NCBI RefSeq assembly: GCF_016888515.1
Contig: NZ_JAFEJK010000001.1
Location: forward strand, 2,017,475-2,081,474
From: Shimia biformata
GTDB lineage: Bacteria > Pseudomonadota > Alphaproteobacteria > Rhodobacterales > Rhodobacteraceae
Length of the DNA stretch: 64,000 nucleotides
Reading direction: 5' to 3'
Shown here: positions 15,352-63,701 of the stretch, one piece after another
How positions within the stretch are numbered: position 1 is the first letter of the stretch
Layout: each line of letters begins with the position of its first letter
Notes under the pieces: generated by a model
What the model was told of the DNA's origin: nothing
The model's database searches: none
Seen by the model: the letters and a program-made list of their open reading frames with translations, nothing else
Position numbers and translations under genes: made by a program

Positions 15352-16224
15352 TCAGCCGCGCCCGCGTTTTTCGAACCGGGGCAGCATGGCCGAGAAATCC
15401 ATGCCCTTGCCGTCTTCCTGATTGACGAAGCGATCATAGAGATCGCGCGCCAGCTGGCCCATCGGCGTGTCGGCATCCGCAGCTTCGGCGGCCTGCTGGC
15501 TGAGGCCAAGATCCTTCAGCATCAATTCGGCGGCGAAACCGGGCTTGTAACCGTTGTCGGCGGGGCTTTGCGGACCGACGCCGGGGGCCGGGCAATAGGC
15601 GTTCATGCTCCAGCTATACCCCGACGAGGTCGAGACCACGTCAAACATCTTCTGACGATCAAGACCCAGCTTGTCGGCCAGTGCAAAAGCCTCGCAAGTC
15701 GCGATCATGGTGACGCCAAGGATCATGTTGTTGCAGATTTTCGCGGCCTGACCCGCGCCCGCATCGCCGCAATGCACCGCCTTCTGGCCCATGATGTCGA
15801 ACAGCGGTTCGGCCTTGGCAAAGGCCTGCGCCGTGCCGCCCGCCATGAAGGTCAGAGTGCCGGCAGACGCACCGCCGATCCCGCCCGAGACCGGCGCATC
15901 CACCGACAGCAGGCCGGATGCATTGGCCGCCGCCGCCACCACGCGGGCGCTTTCGACATCCACGGTCGAGCAATCGACCAGCACCGCGCCCTGGCTCATG
16001 GCGGGGATGATCTCTTCGGCCACCGCGCGCAGGATCTGGCCGTTGGGCAGCATGGTGATGACCACCTCGGCCCCGGTCGCGGCCTCGGCACCCGAGGCGG
16101 CCATGGTCACGCCCTCGATCGTCACCTCCGCCATGTCGAAGCCAATGACCTCGTGGCCCGCCTTGGCAAGGTTCGCGGCCATCGGCCCGCCCATGTTGCC
16201 AAGCCCGATAAATCCGATCTTCAT
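15352..16224 (-). CDS. mmsB: 3-hydroxyisobutyrate dehydrogenase
   Basis: This NAD-dependent enzyme oxidises 3-hydroxyisobutyrate to methylmalonate semialdehyde in valine degradation. The 290-residue product has the Rossmann motif GFIGLGNMGGPMAANLAKAG at residues 4-23, the substrate segment DAPVSGGIGGASAGTLTFMA, and KICNNMILG with the catalytic lysine. The start at 16224 is preceded by GGGAG at eight bases; a GTG at 16233 overlaps the upstream stop and is less likely. It is the last gene of the operon with the isobutyryl-CoA dehydrogenase and the hydrolase, so the three consecutive middle steps of the pathway are together. Confidence 0.95.
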   Translation of the reverse strand: MKIGFIGLGNMGGPMAANLAKAGHEVIGFDMAEVTIEGVTMAASGAEAATGAEVVITMLPNGQILRAVAEEIIPAMSQGAVLVDCSTVDVESARVVAAAANASGLLSVDAPVSGGIGGASAGTLTFMAGGTAQAFAKAEPLFDIMGQKAVHCGDAGAGQAAKICNNMILGVTMIATCEAFALADKLGLDRQKMFDVVSTSSGYSWSMNAYCPAPGVGPQSPADNGYKPGFAAELMLKDLGLSQQAAEAADADTPMGQLARDLYDRFVNQEDGKGMDFSAMLPRFEKRGRG

Positions 16225-16229
16225 GTGGC

Positions 16230-17270
16230 TCACTCCCTTTTTTCGAATGTAAGTTCGTCCGCACCCAGCGGCATCAGCATCTTCGAGACGTCGATGGCGG
16301 GCAAGCGGTCAATGTCGTGTTTCCATGTCGGGTTGCGGTCCTTGTCGATGATCTGGGCGCGCACGCCCTCGACGAAATCACCATGCTCCATGGCCCGGTA
16401 GGTAAAGCGGTATTCCAGCGTCAGCGCCTTCTGGATGTCGGTCGCGCCGCGCAGACGGTGCAGCATCTCGACCGTGCAACCCATGGACAAGGGGCTGGCA
16501 CGGTTCAGTTTTTTCAGCGCGGCGGCGGCGAAATCGCTGTCTGATGTGGTCAGAAGGTTGACAATGTCGCCCAGCGCCTCGCCCGCGAAGAGGGCGTCGA
16601 TCTGGGGCTGTGCGGCCTCTAGGGTGCCTGCGGGGGCAGGGCGGGCGGCGGCGTCGATCCGCGTCCAGTCGCCGGTTTCCTCAAGCGCGGCAATCAGCGC
16701 GGGCCAGTTGTCTTCGGGGATGTAGTAATCGGCAAAGCCGGCAAGGATCGCATCGCCCGCGTTCATCCTGTCGCAGGTCAGGCCGAGGTATTCTCCGATC
16801 CGCCCCGGCGCATTGGCCAGCAACAGGCTGCCGCCCACATCCGGCACCAGCCCGATGCCACATTCCGGCATGGCGATCTGGCTGGTGTCGCCGACAACCC
16901 GGTGCGAGGCATGGCAGCCGACGCCGACACCACCACCCATGGTAAAGCCCTGCATGAAGCTGGCGACGGGTTTCGGGAAGGCGAACATCTTGGCGTTCAT
17001 GCGGTATTCATCGGCCCAGAAACGGCGGCCAAAGCTGTAATCCCCGACCTTTCCGGTCTCGTAAAGTTCGGCAATGTCGCCACCGGCGCAGAAGGCGCGG
17101 TCGCCTGTCGCGTCGATCACGATCATCTTTACCCCGTCGTCCGAGGCCCAGGCATCAAGCGCGTCCTCGATGGCAAGGCACATGTCATAAGACATCGCGT
17201 TCAGCGCCTTGGGGCGGGTGAAGGTGATGCGGCCTGTCTTGCCGGATATGCGGATGTGGATGTCAGACAC
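16230..17270 (-). CDS. 3-hydroxyisobutyryl-CoA hydrolase
   Basis: This crotonase-family enzyme releases CoA from 3-hydroxyisobutyryl-CoA. About 346 residues from the GTG at 17270, which has GGAG nine bases upstream; an in-frame start at 17309 is possible. Visible are the oxyanion-hole segment DRAFCAGGDIAELYETG, FMQGFTMGGGVGVGCHASHR, and MPECGIGLVPDVGGSLLLA, all typical of the ECH_2 subgroup to which HIBCH belongs. The longer C-terminal region distinguishes it from ordinary enoyl-CoA hydratases of about 260 residues. Its stop overlaps the region of the mmsB ribosome binding site. Five consecutive hairpins lie upstream, between it and the dehydrogenase gene. Confidence 0.93.
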   Translation of the reverse strand: MSDIHIRISGKTGRITFTRPKALNAMSYDMCLAIEDALDAWASDDGVKMIVIDATGDRAFCAGGDIAELYETGKVGDYSFGRRFWADEYRMNAKMFAFPKPVASFMQGFTMGGGVGVGCHASHRVVGDTSQIAMPECGIGLVPDVGGSLLLANAPGRIGEYLGLTCDRMNAGDAILAGFADYYIPEDNWPALIAALEETGDWTRIDAAARPAPAGTLEAAQPQIDALFAGEALGDIVNLLTTSDSDFAAAALKKLNRASPLSMGCTVEMLHRLRGATDIQKALTLEYRFTYRAMEHGDFVEGVRAQIIDKDRNPTWKHDIDRLPAIDVSKMLMPLGADELTFEKRE

Positions 17271-17297
17271 TTTTGTTTGCTCCGTTTCCAGTGTTGC

Positions 17298-17380
17298 GCC
17301 CGGCGGCACCGCCGGGCTGCATCATGCTGAAAGCATGCCTCCGGCATGACCCGCCCCCATGGGGCGGCGCATTCTGCGCC
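17298..17380 (-). repeat. Five consecutive perfect hairpins in the valine operon
   Basis: Within 83 bases there are five perfect inverted repeats with loops of three or four bases: GCCCGGCG 17298-17305 / CGCCGGGC 17310-17317; CATGCT 17323-17328 / AGCATG 17332-17337; CATGCC 17334-17339 / GGCATG 17343-17348; CGCCCC 17352-17357 / GGGGCG 17361-17366; GGCGCA 17366-17371 / TGCGCC 17375-17380. The second and third overlap and exclude each other. The array sits between two co-directional genes and should be present in their mRNA. Confidence 0.85.
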
Positions 17381-17406
17381 ACCCCGCGGGTCTATGCAGC
17401 CCTTTG

Positions 17407-18549
17407 TTATACGTCCGAAATCATCTGCCGCGATACGATCAGGCGCATGATCTCGTTTGTGCCTTCAAGGATCTGGTGAACGCGCAGGTCGCGGACGATT
17501 TTCTCGATCCCGTAATCGGCCAGATAGCCATAGCCGCCATGCAGTTGCAGACAGCCATTGGCGACCTCAAACGCGTTGTCGGTGACCATCAGCTTGGCCA
17601 TGGCGCAGAACTTGGTGGCGTCGGGGGCGTTATTGTCCAGCTTCCACGCCGCCTGCCGCAGGAAGGTGCGGGCTGATTGGAGCTTGGTCTCGAACTCGGC
17701 CAGCCGGAATTGCAGCGCCTGGAACTGGTTGATCGGTTTGCCAAAGGCCTTGCGCTCACTCATATAGGCGACCGTCGCATCCAGCGCCGCCTGTGCGCCG
17801 CCCAGCGCGCCTGCCGAGATGTTCAGACGTCCGCCATCCAGCCCCGCCATGGCATAGCTGAAACCTTTGCCCTCTTCCCCGATCAGGTTCTCGGCCGGAA
17901 CAAAGCAATCGTCGAACTGCACCTGGCTGGTGGGTTGGGCAAGCCAGCCCATTTTCTTCTCAAGCGCACCAAAGGACAGGCCCGTCGCGCCATCCTCGAC
18001 CACCACGGTTGAAATCCCCTTGGGCCCGTCGTCGCCGGTGCGCACCATGGTGACATAGGCATCCGAATAGGACCCGCCCGAGATAAACGCCTTGGTGCCG
18101 TTCACCACATAGCCTTCGTTGTTGCGCACCGCGCGGGTCTTGAGCGCCGCCGCATCCGAGCCGGACCCCGGTTCGGTCAGGCAGTAGGAAAACACTTTCT
18201 CCATGGAACAGAGATCGGGCAGCCATTTCTGCTTGGTGTCTTCCGACCCGAACTTGTCGATCATGCCGCCGCACATGTTGTGGATCGACAGGAACGACCC
18301 GACGGCGGGGCAGGACATCGACAGCGCCTCGAAGACCAGCGTCGCATCAAGGCGCGACAGGCCCGATCCGCCGTATGCCTCACTGACATAGAGACCGCCG
18401 AACCCCAGTTCCGCCAGTTTCGGCCACAGGTCCTTCGGGATGGTGCCCTGTTTTTCCCAATCCTGCGCGAAAGGGGCGATATGTTCCTCGCCAAAGCTTT
18501 TGGCCATGTCGAAGATCAGGGTCTGTTCCTCGGTCAGCGCGAAATCCAT
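17407..18549 (-). CDS. Acyl-CoA dehydrogenase, probably isobutyryl-CoA dehydrogenase
   Basis: A 380-residue FAD-dependent acyl-CoA dehydrogenase. It has the signature segments YCLTEPGSGSDAAALKTRA and ISGGSYSDAYVTMVRTG, the C-terminal QILEGTNEIMRLIVSRQM with the catalytic glutamate, and GGYGYLADYGIEKIVRDLR. The enzyme class alone does not fix the substrate. Its place directly before 3-hydroxyisobutyryl-CoA hydrolase and 3-hydroxyisobutyrate dehydrogenase, with mmsA close by, strongly suggests isobutyryl-CoA (valine pathway). An enoyl-CoA hydratase for the intermediate step is not in this operon. The start ATG at 18549 has a TTTTGCAA motif about 75 bp upstream that is shared with the mmsA region. 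Confidence 0.9.
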   Translation of the reverse strand: MDFALTEEQTLIFDMAKSFGEEHIAPFAQDWEKQGTIPKDLWPKLAELGFGGLYVSEAYGGSGLSRLDATLVFEALSMSCPAVGSFLSIHNMCGGMIDKFGSEDTKQKWLPDLCSMEKVFSYCLTEPGSGSDAAALKTRAVRNNEGYVVNGTKAFISGGSYSDAYVTMVRTGDDGPKGISTVVVEDGATGLSFGALEKKMGWLAQPTSQVQFDDCFVPAENLIGEEGKGFSYAMAGLDGGRLNISAGALGGAQAALDATVAYMSERKAFGKPINQFQALQFRLAEFETKLQSARTFLRQAAWKLDNNAPDATKFCAMAKLMVTDNAFEVANGCLQLHGGYGYLADYGIEKIVRDLRVHQILEGTNEIMRLIVSRQMISDV

Positions 18550-53946: not shown

Positions 53947-54078
53947 CCCGGATCGCCCGCGATCCGGGTCGCGCCCGACCCCGCCCCGTCGCACCGAAGG
54001 TGCGCCTTCAAATAAAAAGGCACGCTTCCAGCGAGGTGGCGGGCGCGATACGCCCACCCTCGGTGCCGGGCGCGACCC
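53947..54078. repeat. Structured element with nested inverted repeats
   Basis: Three inverted repeats are nested: CCCGGATCG at 53947-53955 with CGATCCGGG at 53960-53968 (perfect, four-base loop); GGGTCGCGCCCG at 53966-53977 with CGGGCGCGACCC at 54067-54078 (12-bp arms, 89 bases apart); and inner GC-rich arms near 53980 and 54040. A short A-rich patch (AAATAAAAAG) lies in the centre. It could be a structured RNA or a dispersed mobile-like repeat; no function is known. Confidence 0.75.
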
Positions 54079-63499: not shown

Positions 63500-63622
63500 T
63501 GGGTGAGGCCCAAATGTGTGCCGGGCAGTTCCCGACCGCGGGTGGGCGCCGAAACGGTTCCGAATTGCGCTTTATGTCGCGGCATATCTCTGATGTTGCT
63601 TTGAAATGGCAAGGTCGCAAAA

Positions 63623-63651
63623 GCGCCCGCCCGGGGGGCGGTCGGGCGCTG
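63623..63651 (-). terminator. Terminator after trpD
   Basis: AGCGCCCG at 63623-63630 pairs perfectly with CGGGCGCT at 63644-63651. On the minus strand TTTTGCG follows. It is 50 bases past the trpD stop and upstream of ung, so at least part of the trp transcript ends here and ung needs its own initiation. Confidence 0.65.
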
Positions 63652-63701
63652 CCCGGCGGTGTCTGCGACACCTTGATTCCGGGCTTGGTGTTTCGCCGAC
63701 C

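Follow-up and report, generated by a model that had tools for sequence, protein, structure and literature searches.

The RIME elements of rhizobia are palindromic repeats, and the other described systems closest to the one reported here are also small structured elements. As described in the extracts of the papers cited here, REP elements are imperfect palindromes located outside genes; they carry a short conserved head at the 5' side, and the preserved complementarity of their arms was taken as a sign that complementary mutations are selected (PMC2817692). The CIR (CerM-associated intergenic repeats) of Caulobacter, Brucella, and other alphaproteobacteria are about 110 bp long, form two hairpin arms, and carry GANTC (PMC2229807). 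Bru-RS1 and Bru-RS2 of Brucella are palindromic intergenic repeats of 103 to 105 bp (PMC2267715). The ERIC/IRU element of enterobacteria, also a small repeat, is sometimes transcribed together with the genes on its two sides and can bear on mRNA stability; it is listed with terminal inverted repeats, TA ends, and a target-site duplication, and a review reports that, depending on its orientation, it can make upstream mRNA less stable (PMC2229807). The HRC-8-4 motif is a terminator-like single stem that is followed by U's and is found mainly between cco operons (PMC8632094).

The sequence-only reading of a 64,000-nucleotide stretch of the Shimia biformata genome (the window, which lies within contig C10 of this 3.94-Mb genome) reported five back-to-back perfect hairpins between two co-directional genes. 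The results presented here indicated that these hairpins are quite probably pieces of one copy of a dispersed, insertion-type palindromic repeat of the Rhodobacteraceae. The element is apparently non-autonomous and REP/CIR-like, and the family of small palindromic repeats to which it belongs looks undescribed. The features of the locus and two further family copies in the window are listed below. R1 is a covariance model built from eight copies of the element, and R2 is a second model built from 21 copies.

15352..16224, minus strand: 3-hydroxyisobutyrate dehydrogenase gene, next after the hydrolase gene
16230..17270, minus strand: 3-hydroxyisobutyryl-CoA hydrolase gene, the downstream gene (NF004127, 369 bits, exceeding the cut-off of 274)
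17298..17402, minus strand (operon strand): whole element, window copy, 105 nt (R1 match C10:2034772-2034876, E 2.4e-8)
17298..17317, minus strand: second hairpin (P3), GCCCGGCGGTGCCGCCGGGC, which abuts the outer stem; other hairpins take its place in other copies
17314..17322, minus strand: outer stem, 3' arm, ATGCAGCCC; four bases also belong to P3
17323..17347, minus strand: accessory module of three mutually complementary segments, corresponding to the two overlapping hairpins
17348..17354, minus strand: inner stem, 3' arm, GCGGGTC, which pairs with 17386-17392
17355..17360, minus strand: G-run bulge, ATGGGG, six bases on the 3' side of the apex, unpaired in the folds; conserved in the family and the site of accessory inserts elsewhere
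17361..17385, minus strand: apical hairpin, GGGGTGGCGCA-GAA-TGCGCCGCCCC, as seen in the folds of 17272-17409 and 17310-17406; includes the hairpin at 17366-17380
17386..17392, minus strand: inner stem, 5' arm, GACCCGC, which pairs with 17348-17354
17394..17402, minus strand: outer stem, 5' arm, GGGCTGCAT, which pairs with 17314-17322 over 9 bp (100% complementarity)
17403..17406, minus strand: 5' tail, CAAA, immediately before the outer stem
17407..18549, minus strand: acyl-CoA dehydrogenase gene (acd), the upstream gene; acyl-CoA dehydrogenase families matched, none above its curated cut-off
53951..54078, minus strand: third family copy in the window, divergent, with a G-bulge insert by eye (R2, 27.1 bits, E 0.0018)
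63523..63670, plus strand: second copy of the family in this window, a long-class member whose tip is 72 nt (R2, 51.8 bits, E 1.1e-8)

Judging from spacing and function, acd, the hydrolase gene, and the 3-hydroxyisobutyrate dehydrogenase gene are likely to form one valine operon; a methylmalonate-semialdehyde dehydrogenase gene is located farther upstream of acd on the same minus strand. Based on an ad hoc gene caller, the element lies 4 nt from the acd stop codon and 27 nt from the hydrolase start. Its parts are, in order, the outer stem, the bulged inner stem, the accessory module, and the abutting hairpin P3.

When positions 17290-17410 were searched for perfect hairpins (at least 6 bp, loops of 3 to 4 nt), exactly the five reported hairpins were found. 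They are located at 17298-17317 (8 bp, loop of 4), 17323-17337 (6 bp, loop of 3), 17334-17348 (6 bp, loop of 3), 17351-17367 (7 bp, loop of 3), and 17366-17380 (6 bp, loop of 3). The window contains 64 such hairpins in total, and 17298 was the only 83-nt position with five of them. Dinucleotide shuffles of the 83 nt (n = 2000) yielded a mean of 0.21 hairpins and a maximum of 3. The RNA fold of 17272-17409 on the minus strand (z -4.3) and the DNA fold of 17290-17410 (z -5.1) were both more stable than their shuffles, as none of 200 was equally stable in either case.

The description of these hairpins as a back-to-back array gave way to a different one, in which they are slices of one branched element. 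Specifically, two longer-range helices were absent from the earlier hairpin list: an outer helix of 9 bp (17314-17322/17394-17402) and an inner helix of 7 bp (17348-17354/17386-17392). Because these helices reach beyond the listed hairpins, the structural unit ends at 17402 and not at 17380. The helices cannot all coexist, since the hairpin at 17351-17367 competes with the inner stem, and the full P3 and the outer stem, which have four bases in common, are mutually exclusive. The outer stem formed when 17310-17406 was folded, and it also formed in the element alone, there with a shortened P3. In the longer folds (RNA of 17272-17409 and DNA of 17290-17410), the full P3 formed and the 9-bp outer stem did not. 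The overlapping hairpins at 17323-17337 and 17334-17348 do exclude each other, as had been stated, but nothing was found that pointed to the switching that had been proposed for them.

A 125-nt region containing the element produced 46 matches in the S. biformata genome at E<=10, including one near-full match at 90% identity. This copy (C10:2320040-2320142) is 285 kb away and has the same accessory module (17323..17347) as the window copy; the module was missing from 21 aligned S. biformata copies. R1 identified 25 places in the genome at E<=1 (best 150 of 2595 candidates scored), and R2 yielded 40 rows at E<=0.5, with opposite-strand shadows among them (best 150 of 4524 candidates). Because only part of the candidates were scored, all of the genome copy and match counts are lower bounds. 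In total, about 31 copies were accepted in this genome. For further analysis, we used a set of 117 copies, which consisted of the 31 S. biformata places (25 from R1, five more from R2, and 53951-54078 in the window) and 86 copies drawn from part of the matches in relatives. Excluded from the relatives' copies were opposite-strand shadows, two places counted under another locus (L256), and the weak L235, L080, third match in L213, and second match in L211. The R2 rows were used without their shadows, without C25:15403-15482, and without the second strand of C21:275655.

The copies share an anatomy: the 5' tail is short and mostly ends in purine-A, the stem is long, the apex with its G-run bulge is conserved, accessory modules are optional, and a second hairpin abuts the stem. 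The base at -1 before the outer stem was A in 90 of the 117 copies, NNRA tails were present in 78, and CARA tails were present in 24; the corresponding background values, which were obtained with the same test 8 to 55 positions farther upstream, were 22.4 (mean), 13.5, and 0.9. One C10 place (L040, C10:2004556-2004602) is a 47-nt derivative of a window-type element, in which an internal deletion has left the second hairpin and the 5' part in place. The copies on C10 are dispersed and regionally clustered: 22 of the 27 are located within 1.31-2.33 Mb, and there are none in the first 0.97 Mb, which contains parS (0.36 Mb) and dnaA (0.70 Mb). Six gaps between C10 copies were shorter than 7 kb, compared to 1.5 expected, and 9 of 5000 random trials gave a value as high.

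The stem arms vary between copies (GGGCAGCG, GGTTCGCG, GGATCGCG, GGACAGCC, and others), mostly together with their complements. In an alignment of 21 S. biformata copies, 88.9% of the cells were paired and both sides had changed in 15 of 30 pairs. The covariation score was 0.277, compared to 0.109 for shuffled versions (0 of 500 shuffles came near) and at most 0.083 for slid versions, over which the reference structure has an advantage because it was taken from one member sequence in each alignment. Similar results were observed with 31 copies from relatives, a set that does not overlap the 21 copies and that was not used to build R2, although it was found with that model and is therefore biased toward copies that pair: 90.1% of the cells were paired, both sides had changed in 18 of 33 pairs, and the score was 0.305, compared to 0.115 for shuffled and at most 0.062 for slid versions. 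Relatives supplied 63 shorter copies, of which this alignment included 31; those of G024 and others were omitted by choice. Helix 2 of A4, the counterpart of the apical hairpin, was 94.7% paired across 21 other copies. Unpaired cells were present in every helix, and the abutting second hairpin was about 72% paired in both alignments. The compensating arms and the conserved apex suggest selection on structure, beyond what would be expected for inert repeat copies.

Element copies adjoin unrelated genes, and 97 of the 117 were called intergenic. At co-directional junctions, orientation was neutral, with 33 copies in the same sense as the genes and 32 in the opposite sense. The remaining copies were at convergent junctions (28), at divergent junctions (4, all in G024), at contig or locus edges (4), or inside ORF calls (16); the calls came from our own script, which was trained on the same sequence, and the 16 are possibly over-extended genes. 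The even split in orientation and, on the assumption that convergent and divergent junctions are about equally frequent on a circular genome, the small number of divergent copies fit a promoter-avoiding DNA element and not a strand-specific RNA. For the long class alone (copies >125 nt), the small numbers were 10 with the genes, 4 against, and 13 convergent. The G467 subfamily (L292-L310) consists of 19 copies in which an apex of about 100 nt is nearly invariant, within a palindrome of about 190 nt that has outer inverted repeats by eye. Based on the 17 of 19 copies that were aligned, conservation falls from the apex outward and the base of the palindrome varies. Four of the 19 are at divergent junctions, which runs counter to promoter avoidance.

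How does the element compare with the described systems? It resembles REP/BIME in being an imperfect palindrome that is mostly extragenic, in the short 5' head that precedes the hairpin, and in the complementarity that has been preserved, as far as these are described in the extract of PMC2817692. It also has the many, mostly extragenic palindromic copies in both orientations that are typical of REP-like small palindromic repeats of a general kind. However, the element is two to four times longer than the 20 to 40 bp given for REP in the extract of PMC3733652, and the GT(A/G)G head of REP is missing from most copies, which carry NNRA instead (78/117). Specifically, the two heads counted in the 12 nt upstream of the 31 S. 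biformata copies were GTAG (2/31) and CGTC (0/31). The Y1 transposase (PF01797) was rejected as the mobilizer because it had 0 matches in the S. biformata genome, in a search whose control was positive in E. coli and four others; among the 16 element-bearing genomes (E<=0.1), G015 alone had PF01797. A gene located between closely spaced copies was also rejected as the mobilizer, as the seven intervals contained ordinary-looking genes and none that was obviously shared (by eye, from gene-caller output).

The likeness to CIR, according to the extract of PMC2229807, lies in a length of about 110 bp, an intergenic location, two hairpin arms, and occurrence in alphaproteobacteria. When the two were compared by description, the element differed in that GANTC was present in 1 of 31 S. 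biformata copies and in that a long, G-bulged stem makes up one of its arms. Because the tests for the REP tag, the transposase, and the CIR GANTC failed, the element was filed in neither REP nor CIR. By analogy, we read its architecture as one that would work like those of REP and CIR elements. Bru-RS elements are similarly intergenic, palindromic, of similar length, and from an alphaproteobacterium (extract of PMC2267715); the element appears unlike Bru-RS and RIME in its distribution, since R2 matched its own family alone in a class-wide sample (4/385 genomes). For a cis effect of the element, the nearest precedent is the effect of ERIC on upstream mRNA (extract of PMC2229807), but the model-defined ends of the element, unlike those of ERIC, read GGGC in the same direction (54/117 at each end). 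The terminal inverted repeats of MITEs were likewise absent from the model-set ends, and G467 has the outer inverted repeats noted above. The HRC-8-4 motif resembles the element in being structured, intergenic, and from the same order (extract of PMC8632094); it was rejected as the same motif, and the element differs from it in that its own strand lacks a U-run and it is not tied to one gene neighbor.

The element family is undescribed in the extracts of PMC12306157, PMC8632094, PMC2267715, PMC2229807, and PMC2817692, and a term search of PMC3733652 found no mention of Rhodobacter, Alphaproteobacteria, or four genera. We found no description of the family in the open full-text literature, which mostly excludes subscription papers, so an earlier description is possible. 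In a comparison of 17200-17500 with the 4227 models of Rfam, the best matches were 16.7 bits (cut-offs of 45 and 52), and no Rfam match at E<=0.5 coincided with an element in six loci that contain other copies. Thus, a structured element that is present across many genera of one family and on plasmids is without an Rfam match.

The bacterial family that carries the element is a major marine group. When 41 genomes were searched with R2, 16 had a match at E<=0.1 and all were among the 25 Rhodobacteraceae (up to 113 candidates per genome); no match at this threshold was found in the 16 genomes of other families of the class. In the class-wide sample, the four matching genomes of 385 (E<=1e-6, 12 candidates per genome) were all from this same family; five of its genomes were among those shown, four with matches, and 361 genomes without a match were not itemized. 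Presence within the family was patchy: 58 of 198 genomes had a match at E<=1e-8 and 140 had none (23 candidates per genome), with a threshold that is strict and that loses genomes matching in the 41-genome search, such as G024. In an order-level sample, matches at E<=1e-6 were found in 56 of 101 genomes and 37 of 55 genera (46 candidates per genome). The named relatives with the element are Roseobacter-group and Rhodobacteraceae records.

A plasmid collection contained 206 matching records (E<=1e-3) from eight named genera, including Pseudosulfitobacter (128), Phaeobacter (39), and Leisingera (31), and 67 of the records covered at least 80% of the query in one place. One query copy was tried against phage records and had no match. 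Plasmid copies were also located between rfbB and rfbD (rhamnose biosynthesis). At a Leisingera junction beside an FAD-dependent oxidoreductase gene, the element is in one orientation in S166 and M597 and reversed in M602 and S132 (about 32 bits). A G-bulge insert of about 30 nt, missing from sister copies, was found in L. methylohalidivorans at the oxidoreductase junction and in strain M658 at another junction. In L034, L267, and L273, the G-bulge carries a module of about 30 nt that contains three mutually complementary segments and is missing from sister copies; this module is analogous to, but different from, the module of the window copy. The Phaeobacter inhibens DSM 17395 allele has an apparent internal deletion between two GGGC repeats (by eye). 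Neither a target-site duplication nor an alignable empty site was found at the Leisingera and Phaeobacter plasmid junctions or at the valine junction.

We compared 94 orthologous acd-hydrolase junctions (80 named and 14 unnamed, with S. biformata included and one genome represented twice). In 58 of the 94, the gap between the genes was 25 nt or less, and in the nearest named dehydrogenase, that of Marimonas lutisalis (91% identity), the genes overlap and there is no element. The family element was present in six junctions: those of S. biformata, L119 (reversed), L120, L149, L100, and L156. L119, L120, and L149 were R2 matches at E<=0.1. L100 (a long-class copy) and L156 were found by R1 (E 0.0006 and 0.014, respectively); R2 gave weak pieces on L100 and E 0.033 on L156. 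R1 was run on these two alone and the other 92 junctions were examined with R2 and by eye, so weaker copies in the 92 may be missed. Across the 80 orthologous regions (1.0 Mb), R2 produced three matches at E<=0.1, and all three were in the acd-hydrolase junction. This result would hardly be expected from random landing and hints that the acd-hydrolase junction is a place where hairpins are of use or are tolerated well.

In a tree of the 94 dehydrogenases, the five filled rows (L156, a labeled fragment, was excluded) required 5 changes, at least 3 of which were forced by well-supported branches, and the filled rows were no more clustered than with shuffled labels. L196 (JAHVJD010000001.1), which is titled Nocardioides marinus, groups with Leisingera in this tree; because of this grouping, its title or assembly is probably mislabeled. 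Other hairpins were also observed in the junction. In L123, L126, L130, L133, L135, and L139 (Shimia and relatives), a GC-rich hairpin is followed by at least 4 T and is intrinsic-terminator-like by eye; z values were -1.4 to -1.5 for L123, L126, L130, and L133. L153 and L110, from other genera, have a different, AT-richer pair of palindromes (z -3.2 and -2.3), which is perhaps another dispersed repeat family.

The simplest of the alternatives to a dispersed repeat is that the hairpins arose by chance in a GC-rich spacer. Stems form easily in GC-rich DNA, but the failure of any of 2000 shuffles to give five hairpins, the homologous copies, and the compensatory changes in two alignments refute this idea. 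The sequence-only reading had held that hairpin-free junctions in sister strains would be a sign of chance. Most of the relatives that we examined do have such junctions; chance does not follow, because element-free sister junctions together with homologous copies elsewhere in the genome point to insertion. Of its four suggestions, the one that gained support is a mobile palindromic repeat, for which the dispersed copies, the mostly element-free orthologous junctions, the two orientations, and the plasmid copies speak indirectly. A slowing of exonucleases and a differential expression of the two genes, which it also proposed, would be compatible with where the element lies. A strand-specific regulatory RNA of the valine operon, acting as a leader or riboswitch that switches through the overlapping hairpins, would account for the strong fold on the operon strand and for the mutually exclusive hairpins. 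We consider it very improbable, as no Rfam family reached its cut-off, the neighboring genes are unrelated, the overlapping-hairpin module is missing from the 21 aligned S. biformata copies, and the 33 versus 32 orientations largely refute it. A site at which a chromosomal protein (a nucleoid, repair, or replication factor) recognizes the apex and G-bulge, and which has spread by some route and is kept for that role, is an unlikely explanation of the locus. The conserved apex next to arms that vary by compensation would fit such a site, as would the near-invariant 100 nt around the G467 apex above a variable base and the clustering of the C10 copies away from parS. However, copy number varies widely, 140 of 198 family genomes lack a match at the strict threshold, and the G003 and G009 matches are, by eye, distributed along the chromosome.

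A cis-acting hairpin that is selected between acd and the hydrolase gene, where it would set relative mRNA levels as an attenuator, decay barrier, or processing site, is possible, although we regard it as doubtful. The three R2 matches that fall in this one junction, the unrelated hairpins that other lineages have there (including the terminator-like Shimia ones and the L153/L110 palindromes), and the fold of the window junction, which is far below its shuffles (z -5.3), are consistent with it. The short gap in most orthologous junctions and the reversed element in L119 argue against it. An intrinsic terminator was rejected, since nothing terminator-like was found at 17150-17550 and TTTT within 8 nt downstream on the element strand was present in 1 of 117 copies. 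No promoter-like site was found at 17150-17550 either, and shuffles also gave almost no sites of the two kinds. TTTT within 8 nt after the element was rare whichever strand was read: on the element's own strand, it followed none of the 93 copies at co-directional or convergent junctions, and on the other strand it followed 6 of the 117, one of them among the 32 opposite-sense copies.

For the dispersed, insertion-type repeat that we favor, the mode of movement may be like that of REP/Y1 systems. By analogy with these, the element would move as single-stranded DNA, and a factor acting in trans would recognize the tail and the bulged hairpin; we put forward this trans-acting, single-stranded route tentatively, as a reasonable possibility. 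The element would land in tolerated sites, such as those just after stop codons, which here would be the stop codon of acd. Because it occupies a short gap between two co-directional genes, the element is expected to be transcribed and to form a very stable RNA hairpin. Between the two cistrons, this hairpin may be an obstacle to RNA polymerase or may delay 3'-to-5' decay, and the cis effect would be a by-product that selection may keep. If the element is mobile, the question of its mover could be tested in culturable Phaeobacter and Leisingera strains; if it is selected, the conserved bulged apex points to a binding factor. Copies that lie between genes of one pathway, as in valine degradation or between rfbB and rfbD, could pass for riboswitches or terminators.

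To our knowledge, the long class, with its variable tip of near-constant length, is the part of the family that is least like known systems. In all 20 aligned copies (of the 27 copies >125 nt, at loci including L202, L203, L206, L210, L211, and L217-L222), the arms are conserved and the tip is 67 to 73 nt. The arms of the G009 long class were 96% identical and the tips 58% (45% when shuffled). In G003, the values were 82% by column for arms and 52% pairwise (38% by column) for tips; in two G015 copies they were 90% and 53%, and one G004 pair was less extreme (93% and 80%). Strongly differing tips on similar arms are not what whole-element copying alone produces. Either the sequence of the tips is unconstrained and their length constrained, or the tips are replaced. 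The tips were on average no more folded than simple shuffles (mean z -0.07). We can imagine that the family is a modular single-stranded DNA or RNA scaffold, in which a selected bulged apex or stem holds a variable tip as an address, guide, or payload for a factor, but this idea is speculative and rather improbable.

The possibility that tips are captured neighbor DNA was rejected, as the longest exact matches to their own flanks averaged 9.45, compared to 9.40 for other loci. The tip of L250 had a 14-nt match to its own flank, compared to a control maximum of 13. The tip of the window long copy, extended by about 11 bases from the 3' arm, had no match among phages or plasmids. When this tip was compared with 25 genomes (its own and 24 relatives), it matched itself alone in its own genome and had weak matches of 24 to 28 nt in G007, G009, G010, and G014 (E 0.001-0.009).
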